A stretch of DNA of 29,354 nucleotides from Scenedesmus sp. ARA3 (Eukaryota > Chlorophyta > Chlorophyceae > Sphaeropleales > Scenedesmaceae): positions 1 through 29,354 of the forward strand of contig RWJK01001452.1 in NCBI GenBank assembly GCA_004335835.1, read 5' to 3'. Positions within the stretch are counted from its first letter, which is position 1; every line of letters begins with the position of its first letter. The position numbers and the translations under genes are program-made. Under the pieces are notes generated by a model. That model made no database searches. It worked only from the letters and a program-made list of their open reading frames with translations, and was not told the origin of the DNA. Below are positions 57-29,284 of this stretch, piece by piece.

Positions 57-1061
57 CTGCGCCAACCCCAGGTGCTGCCAGCTGCTGAGCCGCGGCAAGT
101 TTGAAGAGCACACGGGCTCGCGCAACAAACGCTCCTCACGGCACTTCATGTTAGACTGCGTGGAGATGAGCCTCAAGGTGCGGCTGGGTATGTGTGTGGG
201 CGCGTGTCGGATGTTGTTATATAACATATATGTGTCGTTACGCGCAGCGCGCATTGCACTGGCGCTGTACCCTGGCCTGTGGCAAGCCTGCGCATGGTGA
301 GGAGTCTCAAGGTGGGTGGACAGGCGCTGAGTGTGTATCCATGTGTGAAGTTTGACAGTCTAGCATGAACAATGCAAATCTGTGCACCTTCAAGCATTGC
401 TGGTCCAGGAGACCCCCTGCCCAAGGTCTCCCATGTGTGTTGCGTTGCGCACGTGTTGTTGCGGTCAGCGGGCCTTGCACAGGCAATTGACCCTCGACTG
501 CGTGGTGTTGAGCCTCAGTGTGAGCAGCACTGCATGGTGTTGAGCCTCAGTGTGAGCAGCACTGCATGGTGTTGAGCCACAGTGTGAGCAGCACTGCATG
601 GTGTTGAGCCACAGTGTGAGCAGCACTGCGTGGTGTTGAGCCTCAGTGTGAGCAGCACTGCGTTGTGTTGAGCCTCAGTGTGAGCAGCACTGCATGGGTG
701 GGGATGAGGCCTTGTTTGGATGCGGTGTACATGCTGCTGCTTCCTGGCATGGCCGCTGCAACAGCTGCTGCATGTTAGCACTCCCCACAGTGAGCCGGTG
801 TGCAAGATTCCGTGTGCCGCGCTCTCCGCCCATGCCCTGCTCACCAAGCAGCAAGGGACAGCAACACACTTGGCAGCAGCCTGGAGGCAGAGTTGCGCCT
901 TCTGCTGCCGGCTCAAGGGGCTTGAGCAGGGCCTGTGGCCACAAGCGCTGCTGCTGTGGCTGCGACCAAGTGTGCCGGCCTGAAATGCCTGACCTGTCTC
1001 GGCACCTGCACGCTGCCTCTGCACTGCTGCTGCCTTCCTGCTGCTGCTGCCTGCCGCACTG

Positions 1062-1092
<31 letters not shown>

Positions 1093-1290
1093 TGCTGCTG
1101 CTGGTCCTGCAGGAATTTGCTGTGCTGGTGAGCAGCGTGGACCTGCACCTGGTGGACTGCATCTACTGCAGCAGCGATGGAGACGAGCAGAAGGAGGCAG
1201 CCGCTGCTGCTGCCGCTGCTGCTCCTGCTGCCGCAGCAGGCACAGGCAGCGGTACTGCAGCTGCTGAAGCATCTGATGAAGCTTCATCCA

Positions 1291-1325
<35 letters not shown>

Positions 1326-1941
1326 GGCGCTGATAGCAAGCTTGTGTGCTCGCGCTGCCCCGCAGTGTTCCACCGCAGCTGCTACCTGGCTGCAACTGGG
1401 GAGCACATCGGGGAGGAAGATGATTGGTGCTGCGCCAGCTGTCAGCAGGCAGAAGCATGCGCTGCAGAGGGCTGCAGCTTCTGCTCCAACAGACTTGCAA
1501 ACCTGCAGCAGGGCTTGCAAGAGCCTGACATGATGCAGCGCTGGCAGCAGCTGCAGCAGAAGATTGATGATGCTGTGGCAGCAGGCGGTGAGCCTGATGA
1601 AAATGAGGGTGCTGCAGCAGCAGCAGCAGCAGCAGCCGGTGGGGGCGGTGACGCAGGGACACCCAGGCAAGTGAGGCGCCGCAGCAGTGCAGGCAGAGAC
1701 CAGCGGCAGCCGCAGCAGCCGGAGCGCAGTATTTGGGATCTAATGGCTGCTAAGCAGGTGAAGGAGCAGCAGCAGGCGGAGCAGCGCAAGCAGAGGGCAG
1801 CAGCCCGGCAGCAGCAGCAGCAGCAGCAGCAGTCGCCTGGCAGCGGGTATGAACAACCTGCCGGTTGTGATGAGGATGATGCTGCTGACGACCTGGCTCA
1901 TGGCACTGGTGCTGATCAGCTGCACAGGCCAGCAAAGCGGG

Positions 1942-1995
<54 letters not shown>

Positions 1996-2173
1996 TGGAG
2001 ACTACTGTTGCTGGCGGCAAGGCTGACGACGACGCTGCTGCTGGCGGCAGCGTAGCTGTGGGTGGTCCTCCTGACGACGACGCTGCTGACGTTGCTGCCG
2101 GCGGCGCTGCCGGCGACAATGCTGCTGCTGCAGCTGCAGCTGCGGCTGCGCCTGCTGGTGGCGGCAATGCTGG

Positions 2174-2217
<44 letters not shown>

Positions 2218-2773
2218 TTGACGAAGCGGCTTGCGCCCGCAGAGTATCCCAGATGACCGCCTGCATGATTGCCGCACGCCAGCTGCTGGCACACCTGCAG
2301 GCGGGCGCGCAGCAGGTGCGTGGCTGTGCACATGCAGCCTGCACCGGAAGTGCTCCGCGCATCCTGTGACGCATGCACATCATTTGCTGTGCCAGCAGCA
2401 GTGGCACAACAATAATTGATATCTGCAATGGCGTAGTGCTGCATGCCTCGCCATACAAGGCTGCAGCGACTTCCACTGCACTCTGGCCAGGCCTGTCTCG
2501 GCTGATAGCTGCCAGCTGCATAGCTGTGCATCGCCTTCTGACGTCAAAACCCTCAACTCTCCACTGCTGCTCCTGCCCCTTTGCCTACACCTACTGCTGC
2601 TGCTCCTTGTCTGCCCCAAGCAGCAGCCAACTGCAGCGGAGCGCCTGGATGCTGCTGACGCCTCTGTGACGTGGCTTGGGCTGCAGCTGCCAGGCCTGGC
2701 CAAACGGCACCCAGCAGCAGCAGACTACTGGCTGGCGAGCACAGGCAGGGAGCTGCGGCTTCTGGCACAAACA

Positions 2774-2839
<66 letters not shown>

Positions 2840-3415
2840 GCTGCTGCCGCTGGGGGTGCAGCTGCTGTCACTGGCTCATGCAGGGAGCTGCTGCTGCAGC
2901 TGCTGGAGGGGCTGCAAGGCTCACTGGAGCCACTCAACCAGCTTGCCAGCAACAGCAGCAGCAGCAGCAGCAAGTGCTGGGCTGCCTTGCAGCAGCTGGG
3001 CGAGTGGGTGGGGCAGCTGCATGGAATCCTGGGCCGACTGCAGCAGCAGCAGCAGCAGCTGCCCGCTGAGCAGGTGGGGCAGCTGCAGGTGGGGCTGCGT
3101 AGGCTGTACCAGCAGCTGCTGCCGCGCCTGGCTGCACACCTGGAAGCTGTGCAGTACTGGCTGTCGGCTGTCCATATTCCACAGGTGTGTGTTCGTCAAA
3201 AGTGTACAGCAGAGTGTTATTGCGCTGATTCAGCCAAGCAGATAGCAACACATTACTCCCGTTGCGGATCACGTGCACCTGTATCAGAAAGCAATGATAA
3301 CAGGCGGTGTGTGCAAACACTAAGTTACTTACTTGGAGTTACTGCTGCAGTGCCTAAAAGCCCACCATGACGTGTGGTAGGTTTTCCATTCCAGACGCTG
3401 TTGTATGGCCATGCA

Positions 3416-3459
<44 letters not shown>

Positions 3460-4407
3460 GCCATGCAGGCACCAGCACAGAATCCAGCAGCAGCAGCCAC
3501 TGATGGATCTGGCAGCAGCACTGCTGCTGCTGCCCCCTGGGCCAACGAGGCTGTGCGGCAGCTGGCAGATCTGCCCGGGACGGCTGAGGATCTGCTCAGG
3601 TAGAGGGTGTGGGACCCAGGGGCGCCGCCTACCTGAGCCACACACCCTCTAAGCCTCAAATTCCAGGAGCTGCAGAGCTGCCTGGGTAGTCACTCACTCA
3701 CTCACTCAGGATCTGCTCAGCGACTGCGGCGCTGCTCCACCTGGCTGAGGTGCTTGTGGCAGCTGAATTTCAATGCAGCATGCGGCATCAGGGGGCGCAG
3801 GCGGCCGCCTTGAAAAGTTCGGCATGCGGCATGCGGCATGCGGCTGCCGGCCTGCCAAGCTCGTTACTGCTGGCCAGCCTCGATCAGGTCCTGAATCTGG
3901 CGCTGACAGCAGCCTGGCCCTGACGGCTGCTGCTGCTGCTGCTGCTGCTGGCGCGGCCTTGAGCAGGTGCTGGATCTGGTCCTGACAGCAGCCTGGGCAG
4001 GTGGTGCATTGCAAGCTGTGCGTTGTCGACAGAGAGATTGCAGTTTGACATGTGAGCGTGCGAGTGAAGCGGGCGTCGTATGACTTGTCTGATCACGGCT
4101 GTAGCCAACGATTTGCGCACGTTGCGCGTGGCCAGCTTGGTGTGGCAGTAATTGCCGGCTCACTGCGGCACTGGCTGGCAGCATGCACAGCCTGCTGCTC
4201 GGAGCAGTAGCTGTTGTTGATTCTGAAGAACTGGCCAACTACACACATGTTGTGCCGCACAACTGGGCCAGTCGCTGGGCGGCAGCTGCCCGGCTAGTAG
4301 TTGAGTCTGCTGCGGCGGCGGCGGGTGGCCCTGGAGTGGCATGCATGGTGAGGCGCAACAGGGGCTTGCCCCAGCAGCATCATGCTGTCAGTGACTTGCC
4401 TAGGTAA
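57..4407 (+). CDS. TDBD/CxC-like and PHD-finger chromatin protein, 5'-truncated, multi-exon
   Basis: Exons I can support: 57-177, 1113-2315, 2621-3184, 3469-3599, 3710-about 3920, and a last exon from about 4140 to the stop at 4405-4407. The first four are flanked by AG/GT. The junctions 2315/2621, 3184/3469 and 3599/3710 agree in phase. The first exon reads CANPRCCQLLSRGKFEEHTG, followed by a basic stretch and then FMLDCVEMSLK. This resembles the TDBD (Tify/Jas-TPL-binding) module found next to PHD fingers in plant chromatin proteins. Exon 1113-2315 has a PHD finger: CIYC (1158-1169), then CSRCPAVFHRSC and WCCASC. Long Ala, Gln and basic low-complexity stretches follow, then a leucine-rich helical region in 2621-3184. 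The C-terminal part is unrecognised. At least one exon between 178 and 1112 is unresolved; a frame around 790-965 (EPVCKIPCAALSAHALL) is a candidate. The gene starts before the window. A nuclear, histone-reading role is inferred from domains only. Confidence 0.6.
498..692 (+). repeat. Six 32-bp tandem units echoing the 3' edge of exon 57-177
   Basis: The TTGAGCC core recurs at 508, 540, 572, 604, 636 and 668, a strict 32-bp period. Each unit resembles the end of exon 57-177 (GCGTGGAGATGAGCCTCAAG and its GTG donor). The units read GCGTGGTGTTGAGCCTCAG followed by TGTGAGCAGC, so a degenerate donor is repeated with the exon edge. A single weaker copy lies near 290-312. The array is in the intron of the PHD gene. 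Confidence 0.75.
1065..1103 (+). repeat. (CTG)n tract before the PHD exon
   Basis: A near-perfect CTG run with one GTT interruption ends eight bases before the AG acceptor of exon 1113-2315. Confidence 0.85.
1158..1430 (+). other. PHD finger interrupted by an alanine-rich insertion
   Basis: The first zinc-ligand pair CIYC (codons 1158-1169) is separated from the next pair CSRC (1347-1358) by 59 residues. Most of these are Ala runs with Gly, Thr and Ser. The remaining ligands (FHRSC, then WCCASC) have normal spacing. In ordinary PHD fingers this loop is far shorter. The insertion grew from a GCT/GCA tract, so zinc binding may survive around a disordered loop. Confidence 0.6.
1946..1994 (+). 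repeat. (CAG)n coding for polyglutamine
   Basis: About 16 CAG codons in the frame of exon 1113-2315 give a pure Gln tract after RPAKRAKQ. Further Ala tracts in the same exon are encoded by GCT (2173-2213) and GCA/GCT units. Confidence 0.85.
2776..2837 (+). repeat. (CAG)n polyglutamine in exon 2621-3184
   Basis: A run of about 20 CAG/CAA codons sits between LRLLAQTQ and EAAAAGG in the helical region of the PHD-finger protein. Confidence 0.85.
3418..3461 (+). repeat. (CTG)n tract before acceptor of exon 3469-3599
   Basis: CTG units with one CTA lead to CCATGCAG and the exon. This is the same arrangement as at the window start. Confidence 0.85.
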
Positions 4408-4411
4408 CGTG

Positions 4412-4559
4412 TGTAAAATGACAGTTTTATGCATGGTAAATGCTGTGTATTCAGATGTCTATTGATGCTTTGGTGAAGCTGGCGACACACTTGTGGCCGC
4501 CACTTGTGACGCCGTTGTAGCATCCTGGTCACCAGTGCATGAAATGTAAGGTAATGTAA
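4412..4559 (+). terminator. Polyadenylation signals (TGTAA) of the PHD-finger gene
   Basis: TGTAA, the usual signal of volvocine and related algae, occurs at 4412-4416, only five bases after the stop, and again at 4545-4549 and 4555-4559. The latter pair is the more plausible 3' end. Confidence 0.5.
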
Positions 4560-4587
4560 TGCATTGTGTTCCTTGATAACCGGGAAG

Positions 4588-4592
4588 TTACA
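4588..4592 (-). terminator. Candidate polyadenylation signal (TGTAA) of the protease gene
   Basis: TTACA on the plus strand is TGTAA on the minus strand, about 1.25 kb after the protease stop. I found no earlier TGTAA in this orientation between 4593 and 5836, so a long 3' UTR is implied. It faces the plus-strand signals at 4545-4559. Confidence 0.45.
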
Positions 4593-5785
4593 TTTACGGT
4601 GCTACTGTGCTGCGTGATGCAGCAGTGAAGTTGATGCAGTTTATGCTGGCAGCCGCCACGCCGTGATATCGGACATCACAGCAGCTCCATGCCTGCATGC
4701 CTCGCATATGCCGCCTGATAACTGCCACCCATTCAGAAAGTGCACAGGGCAGCTGCACCTGCAGCGGCAATGAATGCACAGCATCCCACTGCATGGCGTT
4801 GATGCTATGGCTTGATGGGTAACATGATGATGATGAGCGGCCCACTGCAAGCTGCAATCATAATGATCAAAGACACCTACCCCAGCAAAAACAAAGCACC
4901 CTACCGCGGTACCCCACATCTGAGGCTTTGGTGCCAGTGGTGGCACTGTGGCATGTACATACTTTCTGGGTACATCAAAGGACCATACACTATGCATGAA
5001 CATATGAACAGCATGACACTGGCCATGCGTTGCCGTGCATGCGGCTTTCTGGGACCACGTCCACTCTTGCCAACCTGAACAGCAGTAGTGCTGGTCAGCA
5101 CTCATGAGTGCGGAGGACTCATCCTGGTGTCTGGCACAGTACTGTGCTTGGCCCGCCTGTACTGATCAGTAAAACAACATCAGCACTGCATGCATGACAT
5201 AGGCGCTGGCAGCAGCACACCAGCAGACCGTGTGACAGTGCAAGTCCCAGGCAACACACACATGCAGGACAAAATAACATGCGCCTGACACGACTACACT
5301 ATTAAGTTGCAGGTAGTTTTTGTGCAGCAAAGTTTCTGTGCTTCACATCAATGCCAGATCCTTCCGCCAGCTACAGTCAGCCGTTTCACACTGTTGCAAC
5401 CAGGGCTAGGGCAAACAACAGTGCGAGATTTTGAGCCCTCACGCATGAGACTGCTGTACTGTTCAGCACAGCCCGTGTGCGCCTTGCGATGCAGACACAA
5501 AAGGACACAAGTCTGGAGCATCAGCTGCAGCACTGCAGCCATGAAACAACTGCTGCACTGCGTGCATTCGTCGGCAGTGTTCGCTACAACAATGCGGTAC
5601 ACACAGCAAACTATGAAAATCAATTTGGTGGGCAGCACTGCCCGAGATCCCTTCATGGCTGTTATGACAACAGACCCGCACAAACATTCAGAACAAAAGA
5701 ATTGCAGCATTGGGGCATACTTTGGAGGTGTTTTGTTCTGATCATAAGATGGTTGAGCATTCAACAGTGCCTGATGCAGTGTGGG
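4593..5785 (-). other. Non-coding stretch, probable 3' UTR of the protease gene
   Basis: The open frames here, including a 154-residue one on the minus strand (4641-5105), show no domain, no repeat bias like that of real exons, and no convincing splice partners. The likely content is the 3' UTR of the minus-strand protease gene. Confidence 0.45.
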
Positions 5786-5875
5786 CCAGTGTCACTTGCA
5801 CTCTGCCGCCACGCCGGTGCATGTGCTGCGCCAGTGTCACTTGCACTCTGCCGCCACGCCGGTGCATGTACTGCG
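5786..5875 (-). repeat. Two 45-bp tandem copies spanning the protease stop codon
   Basis: Nearly identical units start at 5786 and 5831. The 5831 unit carries the last codons and the stop (5837-5839). The 5786 unit is a copy lying just beyond the stop in the 3' UTR. The coding edge has thus been echoed outward, as at splice sites. Confidence 0.8.
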
Positions 5876-6035
5876 CCAGTAGCAGCGGCCGTCACCGCCA
5901 GGAGAGCTGCAGCACACACTGCCAGCTGGCTTCAGCTGGTAGCTGCACAGCCGCCCACTGCTGCTGAGCCTGCTGCCGCTGCTGCTGCTGCCGCTGTTCA
6001 GGCCATTCAAGCTTGAGATGACTTGCGAAAGCGCG

Positions 6036-6079
<44 letters not shown>

Positions 6080-6939
6080 ACGGGCCTGATCCTGGTACAG
6101 GCTCGCCTGCTGCTGCTGTGTTTGCTGCTGACTGCCTGCCATTCTGGCAGGGAACTCCACACGTAAGCCGTCCAGGGCAGCAGATTTGCGGGGCCTGCTG
6201 CCCCCAGCATTATTACTCCCACCATTGCTGCCACTGCTTGGCTGCCTAGGGCTGCTCTGCTTGCCACTGCCGTCTGCTGACACGCAGTAGGCTGCAGCGC
6301 TGCAGCTTGCACCAGCTGGCAGCAGCACGCCTGCAGCACAAACACCGACGCAGGTGCAAGTTTCAGCATGTCGAGTTGGTCCCGATATGTCAGGAAGTGC
6401 TGGGCTACAGCTACTGCTGCAGTGCAGCACATTGTATGCAAATTGATACACTGTGCAGTGTGATCGGCACTCCTCTAATCAGGTTATATGTCTTCCCTCT
6501 GCATTGCAGCTGCAGGCTGCATGAAATCATCGGCAGCTGCACTTGTATAGTGCCGAATAATGTCCAGACACAGGCCAGGCTCACCTGTTGCTGCGTTCAC
6601 ACACGCCGGCAGGCCCTTTATAGGGCATCCTGCAGCCGTGCTGCTGCTGCTGCTGCAGCGCCCGCCGTCCCGCCCACACACCTGCCCCCAGGGACAGTCA
6701 TCTGGCTCTGTGCAGCAGCCGGCCTGCAAAATGCACCTGCCATTGCATAGCTTCCTGCCTGCAGGGCAGCTGGTGCCGGGGGGCTGCTCAGTGCTGCGGC
6801 GAGACCTACGGCACTTGCTGTTGACACAGGTTTCGTCGCTGATGCAGTCGCTGCTGCTGCTGCATGGGCAGGGCTGGGCTGATGGCAGGCAGCTGCTGCC
6901 GCAGCGCTTTTGAGTGACGGGGCAGCCCACCTGGGCGGC

Positions 6940-7027
<88 letters not shown>

Positions 7028-9783
7028 GCAGCAGGCAGAAAGGAGATGCTGTCAGCTGCAGCACAGGGCGAGGGTGCAGGGCACGGCCAAGGGGCAATTG
7101 TAGCGCAGCAGCTGCACCTGCATGGTGCTACAGTCTGCGCGTGGAATCTTCTGTCCTGCTTGTCCTGCCCATCCTCTTAAAACTAGCGCAGCTGCCACTA
7201 AGTTGCATCGTTCGCCAGCACAGATGCTTAGAAACAACAAGCAACCACCACGCCTACTGTCGCCGCCACTCACTCTGCGCTGCAGGCAGCCAACGACCAT
7301 CAATCCCCCGACAACCGAACACAGCAGTGTGCAGCTGCCACGACAGCCGTGCTGTTCACCAGCAAGAAATTCCCACCAACACCAACACCAGCTGTCATCC
7401 TGTGCTGCTGCGCCTGAGCCGCCACTCACTCTGGGCTGCAGGCAGCCAAAACGCGGCCGCTTCCACCTGAGGAGCTAACACAGCAGTGTGCAGCTGCCAC
7501 AACAACCGGGCTGTTTACCAGCAAGAAACCTTCTCAAACACCTAACAACCAAAACACATGCCGCCTGCGCCGCCACTCACTCTGCGCTGCAGGCAGCCAA
7601 ATGCGGCCTGTGCATTCAGCAGCCCCCCAGTAGCATCCTTGTAGCTCTTGCCAGGGAACCACTTTGCAAACTCGTACGGCTCTGGGTAAGAAGGCATGCG
7701 GTTGGCGCTGTCCAGCAGGCAGTTGACGACGTCTTTTGCGGAGGCCTGCGGGAACACGTTGCGCAGCAGCAGCGCCGTGCCTGACACGTGCGGGGTGGCC
7801 TGCAGCGGGTGAGGACAGCAGAAGGGGCAGCAGCAGCAGGACAGGCGCGTGGCAGTGTCACAACGATGTCATTCTTTGTCATGCGCAGGCACCTTTGGGT
7901 AGCAAGGCAGCGGTCGCTACCAGTGCCAGAAGGTGGCAGGTCACTGCCAACATCCAAGACCGGCGCAATGTGCACCCATACCTCTAGAAAGCCACCAGCA
8001 TGTCTAATAGAATTCCATAAGGTTATGAGATTATCATCACTGTCCACTCACCACGGAGGTGCCGCTGATCACGCCCACACCGCTGTTAATGCCCACCACT
8101 AGCAGATCACTCAAACGATTGTTATTGTTGTGACATTGTTAGTAACACATACATGAACATCCCCACTGTCCACTCACCACAGAGGTGCCGCTGATCACGC
8201 CCACACCGCTGTCAGTGCCGGCCACCGGCAGGTCACTCGTGATACTGTTACTGTTCGTAACATTGTTGCAACACTTCTCTCAGCACCAGCGCCATCCACT
8301 CACCACAGAGGTGCCGCTGATCACGCCCACGCCCGCCTCGCTGCCCGCCAAATAACACATTTTTCAACCAGCATTACATGCATACAATGAAAAAGAACCG
8401 GCGATGGCCACTCATGCACTCAGCACGGAGGTGCCGCTGATCACGCCCACACCGCTGTCAGTGCCGGCCACCGGCACGTCCGCCCTGAACCCCACTAACA
8501 GCAGCGTGGCCTAACCCCAAGCCCTGAACATGAACCTAAACCCTGAAGCTGCTTCCACGCTCACCACAGAGGTGCCGCTGATCACGCCCACATCGCTGTC
8601 GGCGCCCGCCACCGGCAGGTCACTCGTGATACTGTTATTGTTAGTAACAATATTGTAACACTTCACTCAGCACCAGCGCCATCCACTCACCACAGAGGTG
8701 CCGCTGATCACGCCCACACCCGCAGCGTTGCCCGCCACCGAAAAGTCGCTCAAACTACTGTTACTGTTAGTAACATAAATGACCATCCCCACTAAATACT
8801 CACCACGGAGGTACCACTGATGACGCCAACTCCCGCAGCGCTGCCCGCCACAGGCAGGTCACTTGTGATGTTCACACCCGGCGCCACGATTCGAACGCCC
8901 CCGCCAAAATTCGAAAACGGCGCCAGCATGTTATTTTCGTCCACGGCCGCCACCGCAATAACACAGTGCGGCATGCTTGCAGCCAGGCTGCTGGGCACGT
9001 GCACAACACCGCCCCCTGGGACCTCAGGATCTGAGTCCAGGTGGTCCACTGGCCCAAAATAACAGACGCAGTAGTTGCTGGGGCACTCTTGCGGGTTCTT
9101 GCACTTGGTGGCAGTAGTGCAGTCACGGCCAACGCAGCGGCCGTTGCCGGCGGCTGTGACGGCGATGCCGTCCCTACAGCGGCGGCAGCAGCACAGGCAA
9201 GTGTGACGTGAGCACGGGTACGACAGGTGTGGGCATGCCCCACGCAGCGGCCGTTGCCGGCAGCTGTCACGGCGATGCCGTCCCTGGGCAGTGTAGCGGT
9301 GGCAGCAGTGGCAGCAGCAGCAGTGGCAGCATTGGCAGCAGCAGCAGTGGCAGCAGTGGCAGCAGCAGCAGTGGCAGTAGCGCAGCAAGTGACAAGGTCA
9401 GGGGTGGCTCTGTTGTTGCAAAGTACCGGGAGCTGTGTCACCGCTTCGACTGCTGCGCTTAGCGCCTCTCTCTGCAATTTACCAGCCTTTGACCAGCCAG
9501 ACCCTGCTGCACAGGAATGGCATCACTAGGTGGGTGGGGCCACCCCATAAGATGGCGCATCTGTCACAAACGTGCTGCTTGATGGCCTTGCCGTAACACG
9601 GTGTGCGGCGAAAGACCTGAGCAATGTGCACAGTACACATCATCCCGCACCTGTCGCACACGTGCTGCTTGATCGCATCCGCATAACACGCCTCCACTGC
9701 GCCTCCCGCAGGCACGTATGCGCCCAGGCTGAGGTTGACCACCCAGGAGGCATTGACCGCAGCGGCATGCGCGATGCAGCGCA

Positions 9784-9819
<36 letters not shown>

Positions 9820-10127
9820 GGTGACAACGACAACAGCACCACAACGTCGATTGCGGCCGCATGCGCGTTGCAGCGCTCCTGCAGGCGGCAGGCGGTGCGA
9901 GGCGACGGCCACCTGGATTCACTGCCAGCGTGCTGTATTGCTGTTCCTTTCAAGTGCTGCCCACCATGCTGAAACAGCTGCCCCGGCATCCGCTGACGAC
10001 CATGCCTGCATTTACAACAGCCACAATGGAAAAGCCAACGCAACCGCTCACCACGTCCACGAAGCTGCGCTCCCTTGAGCCGGCGTTGCAGGACACCACA
10101 GCGCCGCCACGCACGGGGCCAACCACA

Positions 10128-10208
<81 letters not shown>

Positions 10209-11180
10209 AGTGACAGGCTCAGGAAGGCTGAGGCTGCCAAGGCACGACAAAGTCCAACATGTACGATCATGATTCAGGCACCGCTGCTACCGCTAGTCCA
10301 ACAGCAGCAGTAGCGGCCCCACTAGCAGCAGCAGCAGCAGCAGCAGCGCACCTGCGATGCCCCCTTTGTCGCCGTTATCTCACGCCCCTGTCATGATGCC
10401 CGCCACTAGGCTGCCGTGGCCATCACAGCTCTTCATTGCTGCACACTCGACCCCCTACCTCAACCACATGGTACGGCTTTATCGCTTGCCACTGGCTAGC
10501 TGGTGGCTTGGCCTGCACCAGACTACAGCTGTGCTGCTACACACAGCAGCAGCTCTAAATGCACACGTTTACCCCGCCAATGCGCACCTGCAATGCCACC
10601 CTTGTCGCCATTGTTCCACGCTCCCGCCATGATGCCCGCTACTAGGCTGCCGTGGCCATCACAACTCTTCATGGCCGCCTCGCTGCTGCCCTCACACGCC
10701 ACCTGCGAATTTGAAAAACAACATAACATGTTTGTCATAACTGGGTACAGCTACTGAACGCCAAGTTCATTGCTTGTTCGTGCTGGCTGCTCTTCATGGC
10801 TGCCTTGCTGCTGCCCTCACACACAATCTGCAAAGTGCAACAGCAAGCATTTGTTTGTGATGGTCTGGCTGGCCACAGCTTTTCTTGGCTGACTCGCTGC
10901 TGCCCTCACACGCCACCTGCAGATATGAAACTGTGCATCTGCAATTGTCTGACTGGCTACAGCTTCTGAGACGTCTAGTTTAAAAGGTGTTTTTGCTGGC
11001 TGCTCTGAAGATTTAGCAAGCGAAGCATGTTTTGCGGCAGTTTACTCTTCATCAGTCTTATGATTGCGTAAGCGCATGTCGAAGCAACCACAGCAAGTAC
11101 ACGCCGCACCTGGGCCAGGCCGCGTGTTGCCGGGTCGCCGCCGTCTATGCTGCAGGTGGTGGAAGAGCCCACATCTACCT

Positions 11181-11212
<32 letters not shown>

Positions 11213-12965
11213 CGTGGTTTCCAACAGCCAAATACGCCAGCAGCTGCGGCACTTATGTGAGCTGCGCTGTTGTGTTTGATGCGCAAGCAACTATGATGAC
11301 CTCACCAGCGTCAAGCCACGCCCTGCCTGCAGCCATCACCGCCGCCATCACCACTGCAGCTGTGGTTTTGTGCAGAGCTGGACTTCATAAAACCTTCAAC
11401 TATGCAGGCTGCGGTCATCACCGCCATCACCGCTGCCACTGCTGTTGCATGTGTGGGTGCCTGCGATGCTGAGGCCATCCGACATATGCATGCAACCCTG
11501 CAGGCTGAAGCGTGGACTCTGGCTTTGCCTGCCCTGTGGCCAGCAGGCGGAAGCACACAAGGGCTGCAGCAGCTGCTTGCGGGGCAACCACCAGCACGAG
11601 TCGAAGATGCAGCCACCAAGACTCTCACCTGGCCTCTCACCTGGCCTCTCACCTGGCCTCTCACCTGGCCTCTCACCTGGCCTCTCACCTGGATTATGAT
11701 AGAGCTCTCAGGCCCAGGCCTGTCCTGGTCCTTCTCTGATTTACGCACGGACGAGTATAGGCTCAAGCAGGCTTGCCTGCTTCTGATGCGTAGGACTTGT
11801 AACTTGTAGCCCTAACCTGGCCCGCCAGGTGTTGAGAGTGAACAAATCAAGCTCAAGTACACAAAGCCCCGCTGCTCACCTGCCCAGCCAAATCTGCATG
11901 CGTGAAATCCACGCCATCATCCACGATGGTGCCCTTGTATGGAAACTCAGCCAGCGGCACAATATCAGCCAGCTCCTCCCGCCACAGCGCATCAATCTTT
12001 GACAGCCGCATGCCATACAGCGCATCACCGCAGCTGCCGCCGCTGCATTCAGCTGGCACGGCAGCTGGCTGTGCCAACTGCAAGTCATCTACCCCGGCTA
12101 GCGCAAAGATGCGGCGCAGGTCAAGCTGCTGCTGCTGCTGCTGCTGCTGGTTGTCTGCTGCGGCTGCAGCTGCTGTTGTGGCAGCTGTGGTGACGCCTGC
12201 AGGGGAATAGGGGACGAACACAGCAGATCAGCAACATGCAAATCTGCAGCAGGCTGGCCTGAAGATATGCAGGCCATAGGCCAGCATGCATTGCGATAAC
12301 AGGGTGCATCTGCAGCTGCTGCATGTAGTAGCACAGGTGTGCACTGCTCTGCAGCTGCGGAGCTGCTGCCAGAGGGCAGAGCGCTAGCCATTTGACTGCC
12401 TGTGAGGCCGAGCCAGTAAGCGTGTGTTTGCAATTGCCGGCTGATAGCCGCGGCTCAGCTGCTGTACCGGCTGTAGCTGCCCCAGTGCTGCTGCACCGCA
12501 CCGCCCACACAGCACAAGAGCAGCCTGCCTGCCTGCAATGCCATGCCCTACCTGCAGCTCCCTGGCCGCTGCCGTCCTGCTGCTGCTGCTGCTGCTGCTG
12601 AACTCCAAGCAGGCCCCCTTGGGGCCTACTGAAGGCCCACCAACAGTGCACAGGCAGCGGGAACCTAAAACTCAACCCCAGGCCTGCTGCCGCTGCTGTT
12701 TGTTTGACCAGCTGTCGGTGGTTTGAATCCATGTTGCCCGTTGACCAGTCGCAGAGGTCCTGCTGGATCTTGGCCAGCACCACACCCTTTTTGCAGGTGG
12801 GTATGCCAGCTGAGCGCGCGGCTGTACATGACACGCCAGCGTCACCTGGGCACTTGGCTGCTTGCACTGCAGGCAGAAAGGCGCAGAAACAAATGCTTAG
12901 GTGGTGTGTCTCGTGAAATGAGTGGTACACGTCAGCAGCAACAGCTCGTGGAGTGTCACCAGCAG

Positions 12966-13021
<56 letters not shown>

Positions 13022-13245: not shown

Positions 13246-13654
13246 TGTTCGTTGTGTCCGGATGGGCAGCACACGCTCCCAACATCACTGCTCCTGTCTG
13301 CACACCATGACATGCGCACTCACAGCCTGGTGTATGTCAGCCTTGCAAAGCTGAAACTAGTTTTGTCAAATTTTAACACCGTAACCTGCAAGGTTGTTTT
13401 GCTACGAGCAGAAGGCAAGGGACCGACAAAGTTTGAGGCAGCATGCAATAGACCGAGTCGTCTGAGGTGCCTACGTACTGTAAAAACACACAATCAAGTT
13501 CACCGTTAGCATCGCAAAAGACTAGCAAATGCTGACGTCGTCGCATGCGCCATGCTCAAAGCAGCAGTGTTATTGGGGCCGCAGGCAACTGTTGACCTCC
13601 TAGCCTGGTGGCACGCCCTGGTGCCTTCGCCCCTGCAAATTGACGTTGGTGCTG
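13246..13654 (-). promoter_or_regulatory. Presumed 5' region of the protease gene
   Basis: It lies between the protease start codon and the HSP70 polyadenylation signal. It has no repeat-biased coding sequence and no motif that I can name. The 85-residue plus-strand frame at 13252-13509 shows no recognisable feature. Confidence 0.35.
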
Positions 13655-13659
13655 TTACA
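13655..13659 (-). terminator. Candidate polyadenylation signal of HSP70
   Basis: TTACA on the plus strand is TGTAA in the gene's sense, about 690 bases after the stop at 14346. The intervening 13660-14345 shows no other gene and is the likely 3' UTR. Confidence 0.5.
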
Positions 13660-14345
13660 TGAATGTGGACATACCGATCATGCTCGACCCACCAGAACTT
13701 CTAGTCAGCAACTCAATGTAACAGGACATGATGGTTGATGATCGTGCGCCGCAAAGGCGCTAATGCAAAGGCGCTATTGCGGGCTGCTGGGCCCCACCAT
13801 TCACGATGTGCTGCAAACGAATGCGGTGTACCAGGCCACGTGCAGCAGTGCTTGCTGACTATGGTGCCGGCAAGCACCATAGCAGTTCCAGGGCCGCCAT
13901 GCGGCATGCTGCAAACAACCGCCGCACACAAATCACCACACTCGATGCACAGCCGGGGTGTCATGGACCTGCAGAGTGCCTGCTCTGAACATGATTGACA
14001 TGCCAACATCCCTCCAAGCCAGTTGGTATGCGTGTGAAGCACCATGCAACATGATGCAACCCCAGCGCAACTGCAACGTCCAGCCAGGCATGTGCCCATC
14101 AACTGCAACCAGCCAACCCACAGCACCCACTCAGCATCTGCCGAGTGCCACAGCACTGCCTGTACAGCAGTGCCTGCAGACCCAGCTGCACCCCGCACAC
14201 CTGCTTGCAAAAGATACCCCAGCGAATACTGCCCCTTGCACCCGCTGCTGCCTGCTGCAGCTGCAGCATCCCAGCAGCGCCTGCTGCTGCCGCCCCTGCC
14301 GCCACCGCAAGCCTGCTAGCCCTGCCGTCAACCCCACTGCCACGC

Positions 14346-22432
<8,087 letters not shown>

Positions 22433-22809
22433 GGTGAGGGTGCTTCTGCACTGCACGATAGCCTGTCAACCTACTTCACAGTTAATGGACGGGTTTTCAG
22501 GCAGCTTGCTGCCGCGCTCCAAGCCTTAACGATATGCTGCAACGCAATCCTGTGCCAACGCTGACATGTGACACGGACGCGGTGAATTCTGTAGAAGCCC
22601 ACTTCAAAACCCTGGCCGAGTGTCACCCTGTCGGCGCCTCGTTAGGCCTATGTGTTATGCTACGCGGGTAGTTTGCTTGTTGAAAGTTGTTCTGTGGACC
22701 GATCAAGATGATGGTACAAGCTGGGCAGTAGTTCCGTTGTCAAACCGCCTGATCTAAGGCATTTCAGCACCATTCGCAACGATTTGTGAGATTAAATACC
22801 TCAAATAGT
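22433..22809. promoter_or_regulatory. Shared divergent promoter interval of HSP70 and TGD4
   Basis: Only 377 bp separate the HSP70 start codon (minus, 22432) from the proposed TGD4 start (plus, 22810). No (CAG)n tract is present. An AT-richer stretch with TTAAATAC lies just before the TGD4 start. I found no canonical heat-shock element with 2-bp-spaced inverted GAA blocks. Confidence 0.5.
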
Positions 22810-24638
22810 ATGCCTGTGATACCAGAGAAGCACCAGCTTGAAGACCATGTGCATGGGGCCCTTGCTGCTCAGTTCTGGTCACAGGGCATCGAGAACACGA
22901 GGTGAGCCACACCCCAAATACCCTCAAACACAAAACACTAAACCCCTTGAACTCAAACACACGCACCAGCTGCATCCTAGGCTGCACTGTGGGCAGTGGG
23001 CCCTCAGCACTGAACTGTCGCTGTTGCTTGCAGGAGCTTGACAGGCCAGGCATGTACCGCCCCCTGCGAGCCCCAGCCCCTCAGGCTGCATGCCCCTTCC
23101 GGTCTATCCAGGACACAGTTCCTGGTAGCAGCGCATGCAGTGCGCGTGCCAGTGTTCCCAGGCTTCTGCAATGAACACGGCGGCACGGTGCGGCACTGCT
23201 GCTGCTGCTGCGACGGTGCCACAGCTTGCATCTTGGCTGCAGCCACAAGGCATCATGCTCTTGTCAGCAGCTGTTCGTGCTGCAGCAGTAGTCATTAGTT
23301 TTTAAAAGCAGCTGCCGTGGCACTTCGCAGCTGCCAATGCACGTCAAGGCATCCTGATCTTGTCAGCAGCTGCTTGTGATTTAGCCGCAGTCATCAGCAT
23401 GTATGCAGCTGCCGTGGGACTCCGCAGCTGCCAACGCACGTCTGCAGCAGCATCACCTGTCGACAGTGCACACTCTCCACTTGGTGTCCCCAGCACGCCC
23501 TGGGTCAGCTTCAAACACGTGCATTGCAGCTGCCAATGCATGTCAACTGCAGGGCAGCAGCACCTGCTGACAGTGAGGGTGCAGGCTCTCCACCTGCCTT
23601 CCCCAGCACGCCCTGGGTCAGCTGCAAACACGCGCATTGCAGACCTACACACACCCCTGAGCGATCCGTTGCACCTGCACCTACCTTGCACAATGCACTT
23701 CGACGCGCCATGCGCCTGCTGGCGCATTGCAACCCTGCTTTGAAACAACATTTCCCTCCATTTCCCTGCTGCAGGTGCTTGACAGGGTGCTGCTGCAGTC
23801 GGGGGGCAAGCGCTGGTGGGGCGCACTCATCGGGCGGGCCAAGCTGCAGCGCGGCATGCAGCAGCGGCGATCCACAACCTTGGTGAGTGTGCATGCGTAC
23901 ATGACAGCAGCTGCAGCAGCAGCAGCAGCAGCAGCAGCAGCACCAGCACCAGCACCAGCGAGCATGAGTACACGGTAGTGCTGATAGGGCTGTTGAATGT
24001 TGGCGTGCAGCAGCGCTCCGCCACCACCCTGGTGAGTCCTCGGCAGCAGCAGCAGCAGCAGTGATGGTCTTCAGACGTGTTGTTGGTGTGCTGCTGTGCG
24101 TTTGCCACCGCCCTGGTGAGTGCCATGTGTACATGACAGCAGCAACAGCGATTCGGATTGTGTTTGGTGTTGTTGCAGCGCGGCGTGCAGCAGCGGTCCG
24201 CCACCACCCTGGTGAGCGAGCATGCGTTCTGTACTTGACAGCAGCAGCATGTAGCTGTGGCTGCATCGCTACAACCTGGCTGGTCTATTGTAGTGCCTCA
24301 GGGCTGCCTGCCCTGCCCCGCTGTGCTGCATGTTCTCGCTGCAATGCCGCAACCTGGGTGATGTCCTGTTGTGCGCCGGTTCTGTGTGTTTTCCACTTTC
24401 CCGCTGCACCGCCGCAACCTGGCTGATCTATTGATGTGCGTCTGCGCTGCCTGCCCTGCCCTGCTGTGCTTTATTTGTCTACTTTCCTGCTGCAGCGCCG
24501 CAACCTGGCTGACCCAGACAACTACGCACTGGCAGCCACAGGCCGCCTGCAGCTCAGCAGCAGCACCAGCCTCAAACTCACAGCACAGGTGGACAGCCTG
24601 GCACACCTGCAGCCGCTGCTGCCGCAGGGCGGCCGCAT

Positions 24639-24674
<36 letters not shown>

Positions 24675-25335
24675 GGGGTGGGCGCGCATGGGGCGCAACA
24701 GCAGCCTCGCAATGCAGCTGAAGCAGCAGCTGGAAGGGCTAGATCTGACTGCTGACTTGGCGGTGAATGAGCTGTCAGTTGAAGGGGTGCGGCGCTACGC
24801 AACAACCCCGCTGCGACTGGCTGTGGATCTGGCACCTAGCAGCAGCAGCAGGCATGGCAGCAGCAGCAGCAGCAGCAGCAGGCTGAAGGGCCTGCTGTTC
24901 CGGGTGGGGCTGCATGGAGTGGTGGCACCTGTGGAAGGAGCTGCGGCAGGCGATGCACAGCAGCAGCAGCTGCAGCAGCAGCAGCAGCAGCAGCAGCATG
25001 CGTTGTCGGTGCATTGCCAAGGTGCTGTGGCGCTGTCCGGCAGTAAGACAGTCTGGGAGGCTTCTCAGAAGCCCTGGCAGGCCGCAGCAGCAGCAGCAAA
25101 GGAGCAGCGGGCGAAGCGGCAGAAGCAGCGCCAGCGGCAACTAGAGGCGGCGCAGCAGGCAGTGCAGGAGCAGGACCAGCAGCAGCAGCAGCAGCAGGCA
25201 CAGCTGCAGGTGCAGCCGCTGCAGTTGAGTGACAGCCGTGGCGCCGACAAACAGCCAGAAGGATCATCACCAGCAGCAGCAGCAGCAGCAGCAGCAGGGG
25301 GTGCTGGGGCTAGTGCAGCTGGTGATGCAGCCAGC

Positions 25336-25370
<35 letters not shown>

Positions 25371-28102
25371 CAGCGAGCAGCACACCGCCAGCAGCAAGCA
25401 CCACCACCGCCACCACCACAAGAGCAGCAGCAGCAGCAATAGACATGCAGCAGCCAAGTCTAGCAGCTCCAGCAGCAGCACCACCACAACAGCCGCCAGC
25501 AGCAGCAGCAGCACTCGCACAAACTCAAACCACACGGGCCCTGCTGGCCGCAAGCGCTACCTCACCCTGCAGGGTCAGGAGATAGCTTTACCACTTCTAA
25601 GCCCTGCTGCTGTGCAAGACTCGATCCAGGAGTCAGGCAGCCGCTTAGAGAGGCTGCGCAGTGAGCTTGGCCAGCTGCGGGGCCGTGTGGAGGCGGGCGA
25701 TCTGCAGCAGCTGGGGAAAAAGGAGAAGGGTGGTGGGCTGCTTGGTGGGCTGGGCAAGGAGCCTGGCGGCTGCTGGAGCAGCTTTTTGGCTGGGCCACAT
25801 TTTAAGGTGGGTGCGAGTGTTGACGCTGTGTGGGTTTGGGGTTTGCTTGCATTTTGTTGGGTCTTTGGGCGCTGATGGGGCCGAGATGTTGGTGTAGCGG
25901 CAATCTGAATTTCTGCACGTTTCTGAAGCAGCTGGGTCAGCTGCGGGGCCGTGTGGAGGCGGGCGATCTGCAGCAGCTGGGCAACAAACAAAAGGGTGGT
26001 GGGCTGCTTGGTGGGCTGGGCAAGGAGCCTGGCGGCTGCTGGAGCAGCTTCCTGGCGGGCCCGCATTCCAAGGTGGGTGGTGGTGCTGCTGTTTGGGTTT
26101 GGGGTTTGTTTGGTTTGTTTTGGGCCTTGGGGCGCTGATGGGGCCGAGTTGTTTTTACACCAGGGCAGTTTCTGCACATGCGCGAAGCAGCTGAGCAGGC
26201 TGTGGGGCCGCGTGGAGGCGGGCGATCTGCAGCAGCTGGGCAAGAAAGGCAAGGGTGGTGGGCTGCTTGGTGGGCTGGGCAAGGAGCCTGGCGGCTGCTG
26301 GAGCAGCTTCCTGGCGGGCCCGCATTCCAAGGTGGGTGGTGGTGCTGCTGTTTGGATTGGGGTTTGGTTAAATCTTGTTGGGTCTTTGGGCGCTGATGGG
26401 GCCAGGATGTTTGTGTAGCGGCATTTCCTGCATATACCTGGAGCAGCTGGGCCGGCTGCGGGCTTTTGTGGAGGCCGGGGGCCTGCAGCAGCTTCCTGGC
26501 GGGGCCACACTTCAAGGTGGGTGGCGGTGTTTGCTGTGATGGTTGGACATATAGACTTTTGTACCCTTGGCTGCATGGGGCTGGCATTTGACGTGGGAGC
26601 ATGGAGCAGCAGCGAGGTATGGCCACAGCGGGGCCACACTAAGTTGGGTGGGGTGTGCAGGTGCTGCTGTTGTTCCCCCACTGCTAGTGCTGGCGCATTG
26701 AGCAGGACAGCTGGCGTGACAGAGATTGGGTGGGTCTGGTGTGTCTGGTGACACTGGTGGCGCGCTTTGGTCCCCTGTTGGTTTGACGCGTGTGGGTGGG
26801 AGGGGGCTTAGGTGACATTTCGAGCGACATCTGGCCTTTCCTGGCAGGGCCACACTTCAAGTGGGTGGGGTTTCAAGGTTGAAGCGCTGCTGGGGCGTGT
26901 TCGGGCATTTTGCAGTGAAGCTGAAGCTCTCAAGGTGGGTGGTGGTGTTGAGGTTGAGGCGCTGGCTGAGGCGCTGCTGGGGCGTGTGTGGGCATTTGTA
27001 GCATTGAGCAGTGAAGCTGAGGTGCTCCGGCATGATGGCTGCTGCTGGCCCTGCCACATGGCGCAGCATGCCCAGCATGTTTCAGGGGCACGGCATTAAA
27101 TAGTAATAGGGATAGGGAATAGGGCGTGCGCTCGGCACACTTTGTGACCATGTCGCTCAGCATGCCAACCATGCCTGAACGGCACGGCAATAACAGGAAT
27201 AGGAATAGGAATAGGGAATAGCGAATAGGGAATAGGGGGTGCGCTCGGCACACTTTGTGGCCACATGGCGCAGCATGCCCAGCATGCCTCAAGGGCACGG
27301 CAGTAACTTTCAACTCCATGCATTGCTTTTTGAAGCCATCACAGCTCGTGTGGAAGCATGTGTCTGGTGTTGCATATCGTAATGCTGCTGCTGCTGCTGC
27401 CGCTGCTGCTGCTGCAGGTTACGGGCCTTGTCGGCTTGCTGGGCCGTGTGCCGCTGCAGCAGCGCACCCTGCTGCTGCCAAGCCCCACCTCACCGCCACA
27501 GCAGCAGCAGCCGCACCACAGCAGCAGCAACGCCAGCCTGGCTAGCACCAGCACAGCAGACGGCGCTGCCGGCAGCAGCAGCGCAGCAGCCGAGCATGCC
27601 GCTCCAGCAGCAGCAGCAGCAGCAGTGCCGTCTGGGCGGCCGTTAGGCCACAAGGCTCGGTCCTTCCTGGCAGCTTCGGCTACACACTTGGATAGGTTGG
27701 TGCTGGGATCAGCGCGGCAGCTGGGCAGCAACATCCGGCAGCAGTCGCAGCTGCGGCTGTTTGGCAGCGGAGGAGCCAGCCTACAGCTTGGTGAGATGCG
27801 GGGCAACTTTTTCGACTATTCGAGGCTGGAAGTTGCACTGGACCTGGGGTTTAATGCACCAGAGACGTCTGCTGCTGCAGCAGCCGCCGCTGCTGCTGGC
27901 AGTGCGGCTGCAGCAGCAGCAGGGCCAGGCAGGGGGGGTGCGGCACGGCAGCAGCGCGCAGCAGCAGCAGCAGGAGGAGGAGTCAAGGGTTTTGGCAGCA
28001 GCCGCCAGCGCACCGCTGGCCGTGGGATGGGATCCATTCTAGGCCCTGCTGCAGCAGTTGAGCTGGCAGCAGCAGCAGCAGCGACAGCAGCTGCACCCAG
28101 CG

Positions 28103-28148
<46 letters not shown>

Positions 28149-28542
28149 ACCATCTGCTGGGCCCTCTGCTGGCCCGAGCAGCAGCAGGCAGCAGCAGCAG
28201 CAGCAGCCAGTCTCAAAGCACCCTGCTTTTGCGTTGGAGGATCGCTGCGTGTGGAATGCACTCACGCTCTCAGCCAGCCAGCAGTTAGTAGGCCCAGTGC
28301 GGCTTCGTGGCGACTGGCGCTTTGCGCTGGATTCGAAGCATGCATGCCCTAGCGGGGTGGGCTGGCTGCAGCCGGGTGCGCCGTTGGCGCTGCTGCGGCA
28401 TGTGGCGGGCGTAACCCCGGCGCTGGTTGACAGCGCGGTGGGCGTGGATGTGGTGGTGCCTGGTGCTGGCGGGCTGGTGCGGCTGGTGGGCTGGTACAGC
28501 CCAGGCAGGAAGGAGGGCGGGCTGGAGCTGCGGCTGATGTGA
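22810..28542 (+). CDS. TGD4: TGD4-like chloroplast-envelope lipid-transfer protein, 5 exons
   Basis: Exons: 22810-22901, 23034-about 23187, 23775-23882, 24496-25806, 27418-28542; about 929 residues. Phases agree, but the 3' end of exon 2 and the start codon are the least certain. Plant TGD4 is a beta-barrel of the outer chloroplast envelope that binds phosphatidic acid and moves ER lipids to the plastid with TGD1-3. Matches, in the same order as plant TGD4: FWSQGIENTR then SLTGQACTAPCEPQPLRL (1-50), the Trp-containing GGKRWWGALIGRAKLQ (exon 3), NLADPDNYALAATGRLQL, TPLRLAVDLA and FRVGLHG (exon 4), FLAGPHFK then VTGLVGLLGR (exon 4/5 junction), GNFFDYSRLEVALDL, SASQQLVGPVRLRGDWRFAL, and the end LVGWYSPGRKEGGLELRLM. 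The plant protein has about 480 residues; the excess is Ala, Gln, Ser and His tracts, chiefly in exons 4 and 5. Confidence 0.82.
23245..23640 (+). repeat. Paired tandem repeats in TGD4 intron 2
   Basis: Two copies of about 100 bp (23248-23345 and 23348-23440) share GTCAGCAGCTG and CGCAGCTGCCAA. They are followed by two copies of about 115 bp (about 23460-23535 and 23570-23640) sharing CCCAGCACGCCCTGGGTCAG. I could not tie these to an exon edge. Confidence 0.7.
24000..24220 (+). repeat. Three echoes of the 3' edge and donor of TGD4 exon 3
   Basis: The genuine exon end reads MQQRRSTTL followed by GTGAGT at 23883. Copies ending about 24031, 24115 and 24211 read VQQRSATTL, a degenerate CCLPPPW-like form and VQQRSATTL, each with GTGAG. 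Confidence 0.8.
24258..24432 (+). repeat. Three echoes of the 5' edge of TGD4 exon 4
   Basis: The exon start CGCCGCAACCTGGCTGA at 24496 is copied at about 24264, 24344 and 24407. The last one keeps the CGCCGCAACCTGGCTGA string intact but is preceded by CTGCAC instead of CTGCAG, so the acceptor is lost. Confidence 0.8.
25929..26516 (+). repeat. Three tandem copies of the end of TGD4 exon 4, two of them intact
   Basis: Copies at 25929-26072 and 26188-26331 are each 144 bp, begin after GAAG and end at AAG with GTGGGT. They code without stops for 48 residues from QLGQLRGRVEAGDLQQLG or QLSRLWGRVEAGDLQQLG to FLAGPHSK, against the genuine ending FLAGPHFK at 25806. A third copy, 26444-26516, has lost its middle and its frame. 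Short scraps of the same edge follow near 26620-26640 and 26838-26870. Confidence 0.9.
27050..27306 (+). repeat. Three-fold repeat with a GGAATA-type tract in TGD4 intron 4
   Basis: A block containing GCAGCATGCC or CTCAGCATGCC and GGCACGGCA recurs at about 27058-27097, 27152-27188 and 27265-27303. The spacers carry runs of AATAGG units and the shared GTGCGCTCGGCACACTTTGT. It resembles no exon here. Confidence 0.75.
27384..27416 (+). repeat. (CTG)n tract before TGD4 exon 5
   Basis: CTG units with one CCG lead straight to CTGCAG and the exon at 27418. Confidence 0.85.
28108..28148 (+). repeat. (GCT)n polyalanine tract in TGD4 exon 5
   Basis: About 13 GCT codons in frame. Other Ala and Ser/Gln tracts in this exon include 27605-27625, 27864-27925 and 28063-28090. 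They fall between conserved TGD4 segments, not inside them. Confidence 0.85.
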
Positions 28543-28568
28543 ACTGATGTGAACGGGGTCCTGCGTTT

Positions 28569-28573
28569 TGTAA
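28569..28573 (+). terminator. Polyadenylation signal (TGTAA) of TGD4
   Basis: TGTAA lies 27 bases after the stop at 28540-28542. No other plus-strand TGTAA was found between the stop and the window end. Confidence 0.5.
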
Positions 28574-28682
28574 CGATGTCAGTGTTGCGGCTGCTTTACT
28601 CAGCTAGACATGGAATATGAAAAACCTGGAACTCTAAATGCTGCACATGCTCCGCTTGAGTTCTGTTGAAACCTGCGGCAGC

Positions 28683-28755
28683 GCTGGTGCGGCTGGTGGG
28701 CGGGTACAGCCCGGGCAGGAAGCAGGGCGGGCTGGAGCTGCGGCTGATGTGATCA
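28683..28755 (+). repeat. Echo of the TGD4 C-terminus after the stop
   Basis: About 70 bp repeat 28474-28545, coding LVRLVGWYSPGRKEGGLELR as LVRLVGGYSPGRKQGGLELR through its own TGA. It lies beyond the proposed polyadenylation signal. Confidence 0.9.
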
Positions 28756-29284
28756 GGTGTTGCTTAGGTGTGTATGTGACCTTCTAGTATGGAGTATTTT
28801 TTTGCCGTGTTCAGCAGCACGTGCGATGTTAAAATGTGGCGGTGCTGCTGCGGGTGCGCGAGTTGGCTGCTGAATGTCTGCTACATCCGGGGCTCGCCTT
28901 CTGATCGAGTGTTGTCATAGTTAAGGCCAGATTTTCAAACAGGAAGAACCACGGCGTACAATGAAAGCGTCCTAATCAATGCATTTGTCACGAATAACCA
29001 CAACACACGCTCGACGTTGTCCATACTTGAGTTGAACACGGCTCAAAATAACTTCCAGTGCTATAACGTAGTACATAGTGCATGAAACACCTCTGATTTA
29101 CCGATCAGGTGCCCTTTTTAACAGAATCAGGTGTTGGTACGCAAACGAAACACGCGCCTGTAGGATACAAACAATGCTCTATGTTGTTTTCAGAATCGTA
29201 AAGTCGATCTTTCAGGTGACTCAGGCGATGTTCTGCCCTCCAGCGCACAAACAAAACAGTCACCTGGTCGAGCACTATGGTCAC
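28756..29284. other. Intergenic sequence without recognised features
   Basis: It is lower in GC than the genes and free of trinucleotide tracts. The 65-residue minus-strand frame at 29105-29302 has no recognisable motif. Confidence 0.4.

Follow-up and report, generated by a model that had tools for sequence, protein, structure and literature searches.

Many exon edges in the genome of this alga are accompanied by partial copies of themselves in the adjoining intron, and this feature is real, widespread and orderly. Its best explanation, which we consider somewhat more probable than all others together, would be recurrent tandem duplication of segments of about 100–180 bp across exon edges, followed by exchange among the copies. 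The observations come from a window of 29,354 nucleotides (the whole stretch of DNA analysed), which is part of an 87.3-Mb assembly of 1567 contigs, and from further sampled regions. The host is likely Tetradesmus obliquus or a very close relative, since the HSP70C protein encoded in the window has 98.8% amino acid identity to T. obliquus OEZ86_009446 (P0001) and the product of the BiP gene (contig C272) matches T. obliquus OEZ86_007102 (P0243) with 100% identity over 655 aligned residues.

HSP70C (in the window, 18 exons) and BiP (elsewhere, 14 exons), two genes with protein-checked exon models, were used for a strict test. The models were built with a home-made spliced aligner; for HSP70C four query proteins gave identical internal exon edges, and for BiP two of four queries agreed in full, while query P0244 gave three extra mini-exons in intron 12 and P0249 deviated at the first and last exons. 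Both models fit the reference proteins with the copies staying inside existing introns. Introns were scanned with masked exon-edge probes of at most 60 nt at a score cut-off of 40. At this cut-off 22 of the 59 edges (13/30 5' edges and 9/29 3' edges) had a same-strand partial copy in the expected adjacent intron, and all 22 conform to the arrangement described in an earlier note on the window, namely 3' edges copied downstream of the exon and 5' edges copied upstream of it. Copies on the wrong side (best scores 37 and 36, both in BiP) or in reverse complement were found for none of the 59 edges. The earlier note had also proposed scoring edges against mismatched exon-intron pairs, and here the difference is clear: only 5 of 1655 comparisons with other introns of the same two genes reached the cut-off. 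Three of ten mid-exon probes scored as well (HSP70C exons 10 and 14, BiP exon 11), which we read as long edge copies, as the edges of these exons score too. Altogether 29 copies were collected in the two genes, of which 27 reach the exact exon edge, one falls short by 1 nt and one by 5 nt. Most of them also match the splice dinucleotide, none is of low complexity by the chosen cut-off, and no low-complexity match was dropped.

The observation extends beyond the window and, as the earlier note had supposed, across unrelated genes. Self-comparison of the window with period-3 runs masked yielded 57 self matches, 56 direct ones spaced by 64–781 bp and a single inverted one. When 20 further regions were added to the window (regions L001–L008 and L029 being left out of these repeat counts), direct matches outnumbered inverted ones by 160 to 5, and three regions (L009, L011, L016) contained no direct pairs. 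Moreover, 311 exon matches to five Pfam families, 189 of them to HSP70, TCP-1 and HSP90 and 122 to EF-Tu GTPase and E1-E2 ATPase, included 35 profile-overlapping pairs within 1 kb, three of which come from HSP70C and BiP. All 35 pairs are on the same strand, 34 are on the expected side, with one unassignable tie (C1542) counted against the side rule, and 33 are no more than five residues away from the longer match's edge. The threshold for acceptance was E 0.001 for HSP70 and as high as E 5 for the four remaining families, with only the best candidates scored. For profiles that end within the gene, such as PF00122, which ends near residue 181, the '3' edge' is partly trivial and the side is still informative.

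HSP70C itself is located on the minus strand at 14349–22432, as indicated by spliced alignment with four queries and by family matches, with GT-AG borders at 17 of 17 introns and 14 counted exon-edge copies. Edge probes derived from the exon model bear out the claim that exons 4, 10 and 15 are flanked on both sides. Exon 4 (20939–21028) has a copy of its 5' edge 103 bp upstream (21086–21134; 49 nt, 100% identical) and a copy of its 3' edge 155 bp downstream (20779–20814), both detected by masked self-comparison and by edge probes. Exon 10 (18271–18437) is preceded by three copies of its 5' edge at 126, 230 and 339 bp (18515–18779), with spacers that are alignable in part, and followed after 245 bp by a 96-nt copy of its 3' edge that includes the donor and is 97.9% identical (18019–18114). 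Copies of both edges of exon 15 (15801–15914) lie at 15998–16045 (5' edge) and at 15669–15721 (3' edge, including the donor). Further 5' edge copies belong to exon 8 (19167–19321; copy at 19375–19426, with seven of nine changes in third codon positions), exon 14 (16309–16479; copy at 16554–16665, 112 nt, 92%, with eight of nine changes in third positions), exon 17 (14848–14996; two copies within 15126–15282) and exon 18 (14349–14549; copy at 14595–14687, 93 nt, 91%), and a 3' edge copy with still recognisable intron flank homology belongs to exon 13 (17022–17111; copy at 16894–16924). In BiP, exons 5, 11, 12 and 13 have copies on both sides.

The protease and TGD4-like genes of the window were analysed by self-comparison without a verified protein model, so that exon numbers are provisional. 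The protease gene (minus strand) contains an array of seven exon 3' edges with a unit of about 126 bp (8045–8860), in which the reading frame assigns the live edge to the unit at 8797–8860 and leaves six copies at 8045–8747. By self-comparison and frame, it also contains an exon 5' edge at 9129–9175 with a copy at 9239–9285, and an exon at about 10584–10703 with copies on both sides (10348–10442, 10790–10834 and 10874–11006). In the TGD4-like gene (plus strand; named from the sequence-only reading) an exon 3' edge ending at 25806 is followed by copies ending at 26072, 26331 and 26516 (25664–26516). The last coding exon of this gene has its end copied as well, 210 bp downstream at 28683 (28473–28760), and here the match halts at the stop codon and not at a splice site. 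This case, although a single one, suggests that the sharp copy boundary is set by coding constraint and not by splicing as such. Copies in the first gene (plus strand) are short: about 24 nt of the presumed exon edge at 154–177 resemble, by direct reading and without statistics, positions 496–518 and units of the ensuing 32-bp array (497–697).

Spacing is regular. The nearest copy is 103–182 bp away at 20 of the 22 copy-bearing edges and 245 and 249 bp away at the other two (median 126 bp), and spaced pairs across the sampled regions peak at 100–140 bp with a second rise at 230–260 bp. The proposal that introns lengthen by this route was supported: introns with a copy have a median length of 394 bp (n = 18) as compared to 236 bp for those without (n = 12; Mann-Whitney p 0.0004), and subtraction of the stretch from the exon edge to the outermost copy reduces the former to 225 bp. 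The copy stretches, which make up 3949 of the 11,349 intron bases of HSP70C and BiP (35%), account for the extra length of copy-bearing introns. Divergence, in contrast to what had been claimed, does not grow with distance from the exon (Spearman 0.02, p 0.93, n = 29); in multi-copy arrays the match falls steadily with distance in two of five, and in the TCP1 5' array it is the outermost copy that matches best. Triplet runs are suggestive only as a trigger. By simple count they occur in 8 of 21 spacers as compared to 34 of 242 control windows, and among introns they are present in 13 of 18 copy-bearing versus 7 of 12 copy-free ones (Fisher p 0.46); at the locus level, after one region consisting largely of N (L019, 8132 of 10,000 bases) had been dropped from the triplet-run analysis, they correlate with copies (Spearman 0.55, p 0.013).

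How could exon edges multiply within introns and leave the mRNA unchanged? In a first step, a segment that straddles the border, with an exon end and the first part of the intron or the same in mirror image, would duplicate in tandem. In a second step, splicing would join whichever copy runs on into the exon body, and the spare is predicted to be removed with the intron, leaving the mRNA the same and the intron one unit longer. The strict side rule would, on this reasoning, demand no special process, because a border-spanning duplication puts the spare towards the intron, any other outcome being harmful to the mRNA. In a third step, neighbouring edge copies would pair out of register, allowing arrays to expand, contract and swap sequence; selection would fix the live exon and spacers would drift, such that the coding part stays recognisable and the intron part becomes scrambled. 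The first two steps taken alone are probable, judging from the sequence, and the third, the out-of-register pairing and exchange, appears to be the weaker part.

Evidence for duplication comes from the flanks. Ten of the 29 copies have intron-flank similarity at a rank p of at most 0.06, where at most about 1.7 would be expected, although some of this similarity consists partly of CTG runs. This set includes single copies (HSP70C exon 13 3'; BiP exons 5 3', 12 3' and 13 5'), implying a plain tandem unit at birth. The remaining 19 copies have no flank homology above that of shuffled pairs at this rank p. Recently expanded units are alike throughout, including the spacer (L013, 8456–8834; L018, 9154–9460), and this rules out fast-mutating introns as an explanation for scrambled spacers. 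Thus, of the recurrent tandem duplication across exon-intron borders proposed in the earlier note, the duplication is supported by the flank homology and the side rule, and neutral decay as the sole subsequent process is not. At an identity of 90% or more the flank should align, and mostly it does not. In pairs that are at least 95% identical (n = 27) homology covers, at the median, just 0.38 of the spacing, and the similarity of the 40-nt flanks is that of random pairs. The homologous length reaches at least 0.9 of the spacing in 6–11% of pairs in each identity class from 80% upward and in 28% in the 70–80% class, masking shortening some matches; two of the 160 pairs, more than 1 kb apart, were left out of this analysis.

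The coding part of the copies is preserved in an unexpected manner. In four arrays, even between one copy and another, gaps amount to 0–5.6 nt per 100 in the coding parts versus 15–48 in the spacers. Across the 29 copies of HSP70C and BiP, mismatches to the live exon number 30/536, 17/534 and 73/534 in first, second and third codon positions, and only seven gaps, each of 1–2 nt, occur in 1604 aligned nucleotides, together with a single stop codon; one TCP1 copy carries a 1-nt insertion. When seven TCP1 copies are included, 95 silent and 51 amino acid changes relative to the live exon are found in 689 codons, where neutrality would give a silent share of at most about 0.5. Comparison of copies with each other yields 49 silent and 42 amino acid changes from pairs that are not independent, and the corresponding neutral share of at most about 0.33 ignores silent change of the exon between births. 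Taken together, the short homologous part, the random-like flanks and the mostly silent coding changes are the reasons why simple duplication with neutral decay fails. From the silent bias we infer either that copies are renewed by exchange with the live, selected exon or that the joined partners had already diverged as haplotypes; given the surplus of silent changes, diverged haplotypes may often be brought together by exchange or duplication. Strong haplotype divergence is plausible, as the assembly of S. obliquus DOE0152z, with 208 Mb, is about twice the 109 Mb of UTEX 393 (PMC5552973) and Scenedesmus NREL 46B-D3 is described, in the accessible part of the report, as likely diploid (PMC7955037). 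A mosaic (four-gamete) test for exchange was not significant in the four arrays analysed (P 0.34, 0.10, 0.62 and 0.13). That the coding half of the copies is preserved is the most puzzling and intriguing aspect of the phenomenon.

Alternatively, copies could be born with sharp edges, if a break or a switch of template at a splice site led to copying of the exon edge alone or around a filler. Such a birth is possible for the 19 copies without flank homology, and it would fit the exact stop of 27 of 29 copies at the exon edge, the short homologous part and background-like flanks of the most similar pairs, and the splice-like motifs visible by eye at one boundary of many pairs. Of 121 pairs, 39 have a strong site in each of the two copies, as compared to 23.6 expected from an interior-position null; when the annotation-free motif scan was run at a very low threshold the interior null exceeded the real count, and the stricter version gave this moderate enrichment. 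Degraded flank homology in 10 of the 29 copies, the plain tandem units in some arrays and the copy that ends at a stop codon without a splice site argue against it. Furthermore, no source of filler was found, as two copy-spacer regions with copies of 98–100% identity match nothing else in the genome in a search that skips common words. We consider edge insertion unlikely, albeit the best placed of the alternatives to border-spanning duplication with exchange.

Less likely again is that the copies function as alternative exon ends under selection at the protein level. The preponderance of silent changes and the rarity of gaps would be consistent with such a role, as would the acceptor-like TGCAG at the start of the BiP exon 12 3' copy and the BiP annotation P0244 of T. 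obliquus, which holds DKVSAEDKKT three times and thereby apparently includes the copies of the exon 13 edge as coding. However, the copies are detached from the remainder of the exon, no consistent second splice site is visible to the eye, the 29 copies contain seven gaps of 1–2 nt and a stop codon and one TCP1 copy a 1-nt insertion, and such use at a third of all exon edges is implausible.

Still less probable is an assembly artefact, in which two diverged haplotypes are joined end to end at exons and the copies are alleles of one edge. Silent-biased changes next to scrambled introns do resemble a comparison of alleles or orthologs, and the assembly sizes and likely diploidy cited above lend the idea some plausibility. 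Against it stand arrays of up to seven units with partly alignable or nearly identical spacers, identities that range from 80 to 100% inside a single gene, the absence of N from the window and from regions L013 and L029, and the presence of the exon 13 copies also in annotation P0244, which is located on a 3.05-Mb contig of another T. obliquus assembly. Finally, chance similarity in CAG/CTG-rich sequence combined with the splice consensus, for which the composition of the genome and the only moderate motif enrichment might speak, is refuted by the masked-probe edge test (5/1655 in other introns, 0/59 in reverse complement, none of 29 copies of low complexity) and is of negligible probability.

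Several known phenomena share features with the duplicated exon edges. Tandem exon duplication concerns a whole exon with both splice sites; it likewise leaves exon copies close by, on the same strand and in the same gene, but the copies described here are partial (none of 29 is of exon length), carry one splice edge and lie outside the modelled protein. Minisatellite-type arrays also expand as tandem units, but in the alga a live exon edge forms one half of the unit and most pairs are alike in that half only. Introner elements are a genome-wide source of intron sequence, as the edge copies seem to be, but place the same sequence at many sites, whereas both algal copy-spacer regions searched match only themselves, common words being skipped. 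False (heterotype) duplications in assemblies consist of adjacent diverged copies of one segment and differ from the algal arrays, whose spacers can be aligned and whose divergence varies widely inside a single gene. Intron lengthening without transposons is, to our knowledge, poorly documented. The earlier note knew of no named process that fits exactly. Literature searches returned no description of the exon-edge copy pattern in their result listings, but a related event has been published for the potato RdRp gene, the nearest case found (PMC4974935). According to the accessible part of that report, a short tandem duplication there also crosses an intron-exon boundary (PMC4974935). In both organisms spare exonic sequence turns intronic with splice signals inherited from the parent structure; in potato a new intron arises, whereas in the alga an existing intron lengthens, exon number and protein remain unchanged, and 22 of 59 edges are affected, in places as arrays. 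The accessible text of a further paper (PMC7590803) mentions neither 'intron' nor 'exon'.

The mean intron of T. obliquus measures 462 bp as compared to 230–302 bp in four other tabulated algae, coding sequence is given as 15.7%, and the larger genome is put down to intergenic regions and introns, with no mechanism named in the accessible part of the study (PMC5966456). The threefold DKVSAEDKKT in P0244 suggests that copies can be annotated as coding, and since this annotation seems to include edge copies, gene models of such genomes would, should the pattern be general, call for caution. Tentatively, and with a good deal of doubt, it may be envisaged that exon edges seed self-renewing arrays that extend introns outward in steps of about 126 bp and whose spares exchange with the live exon, so that introns would form a recombining reserve of near-functional coding ends in which amino acid sequence is kept untranslated. 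If the phenomenon is general, exon-edge copies would constitute a step-sized record of intron growth and a natural experiment on how the spliceosome disregards decoys that are nearly perfect.

Copies of exon edges with their splice sites are distributed very unevenly among the sampled regions. The density of direct pairs (self matches on the same strand) ranges from 0 to 19 per 10 kb, with L009, L011 and L016 contrasting with L013, L017, L024 and the window. By region, copy density rises loosely with CAG/CTG runs (Spearman 0.55, p 0.013). Telomere-like heptamers in TTTAGGG phase are enriched in the sampled regions (for TTTAGGG, 27 observed, 5.3 expected) and cluster in two copy-rich genes, reaching 111 per 8.4 kb in L029, the TCP1 locus (C1492:2600-11000), and 42 per 10 kb in L013.

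Within the window, the coding end of the last exon of the TGD4-like gene is duplicated beyond the gene at 28683-28760; this duplicate includes the stop codon, at which the match stops. A nearly perfect tandem duplication of 45 bp at 5785-5880, outside the gene models made in this analysis, illustrates that local duplication has recently occurred at a distance from exons as well. Furthermore, a probable intron of the protease gene contains a dispersed repeat of about 115 bp (11694-11808), which has at least 39 matches in the genome at 83-95% identity on both strands and is adjoined by a (CTCTCACCTGGC)n array. A scan of the whole window against Rfam found no family at or above its threshold.

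Elsewhere in the assembly, contigs C74 and C1411 have 954 bp of their ends in common at 100% identity in inverted orientation (positions 5464-6417 of sampled region L009 and 4926-5879 of L010), and therefore a single HSP70 gene seems to be divided between these two overlapping contigs.

Short internal repeats are also found in predicted proteins: DKVSAEDKKT occurs three times in the predicted BiP of T. obliquus OEZ85 (P0244), and the predicted HSP70C proteins of Chlamydomonas sp. UWO 241 and Edaphochlamys debaryana (P0024, P0029) contain such repeats as well. These repeats may likewise be exon-edge copies that were annotated as coding elsewhere among green algae.
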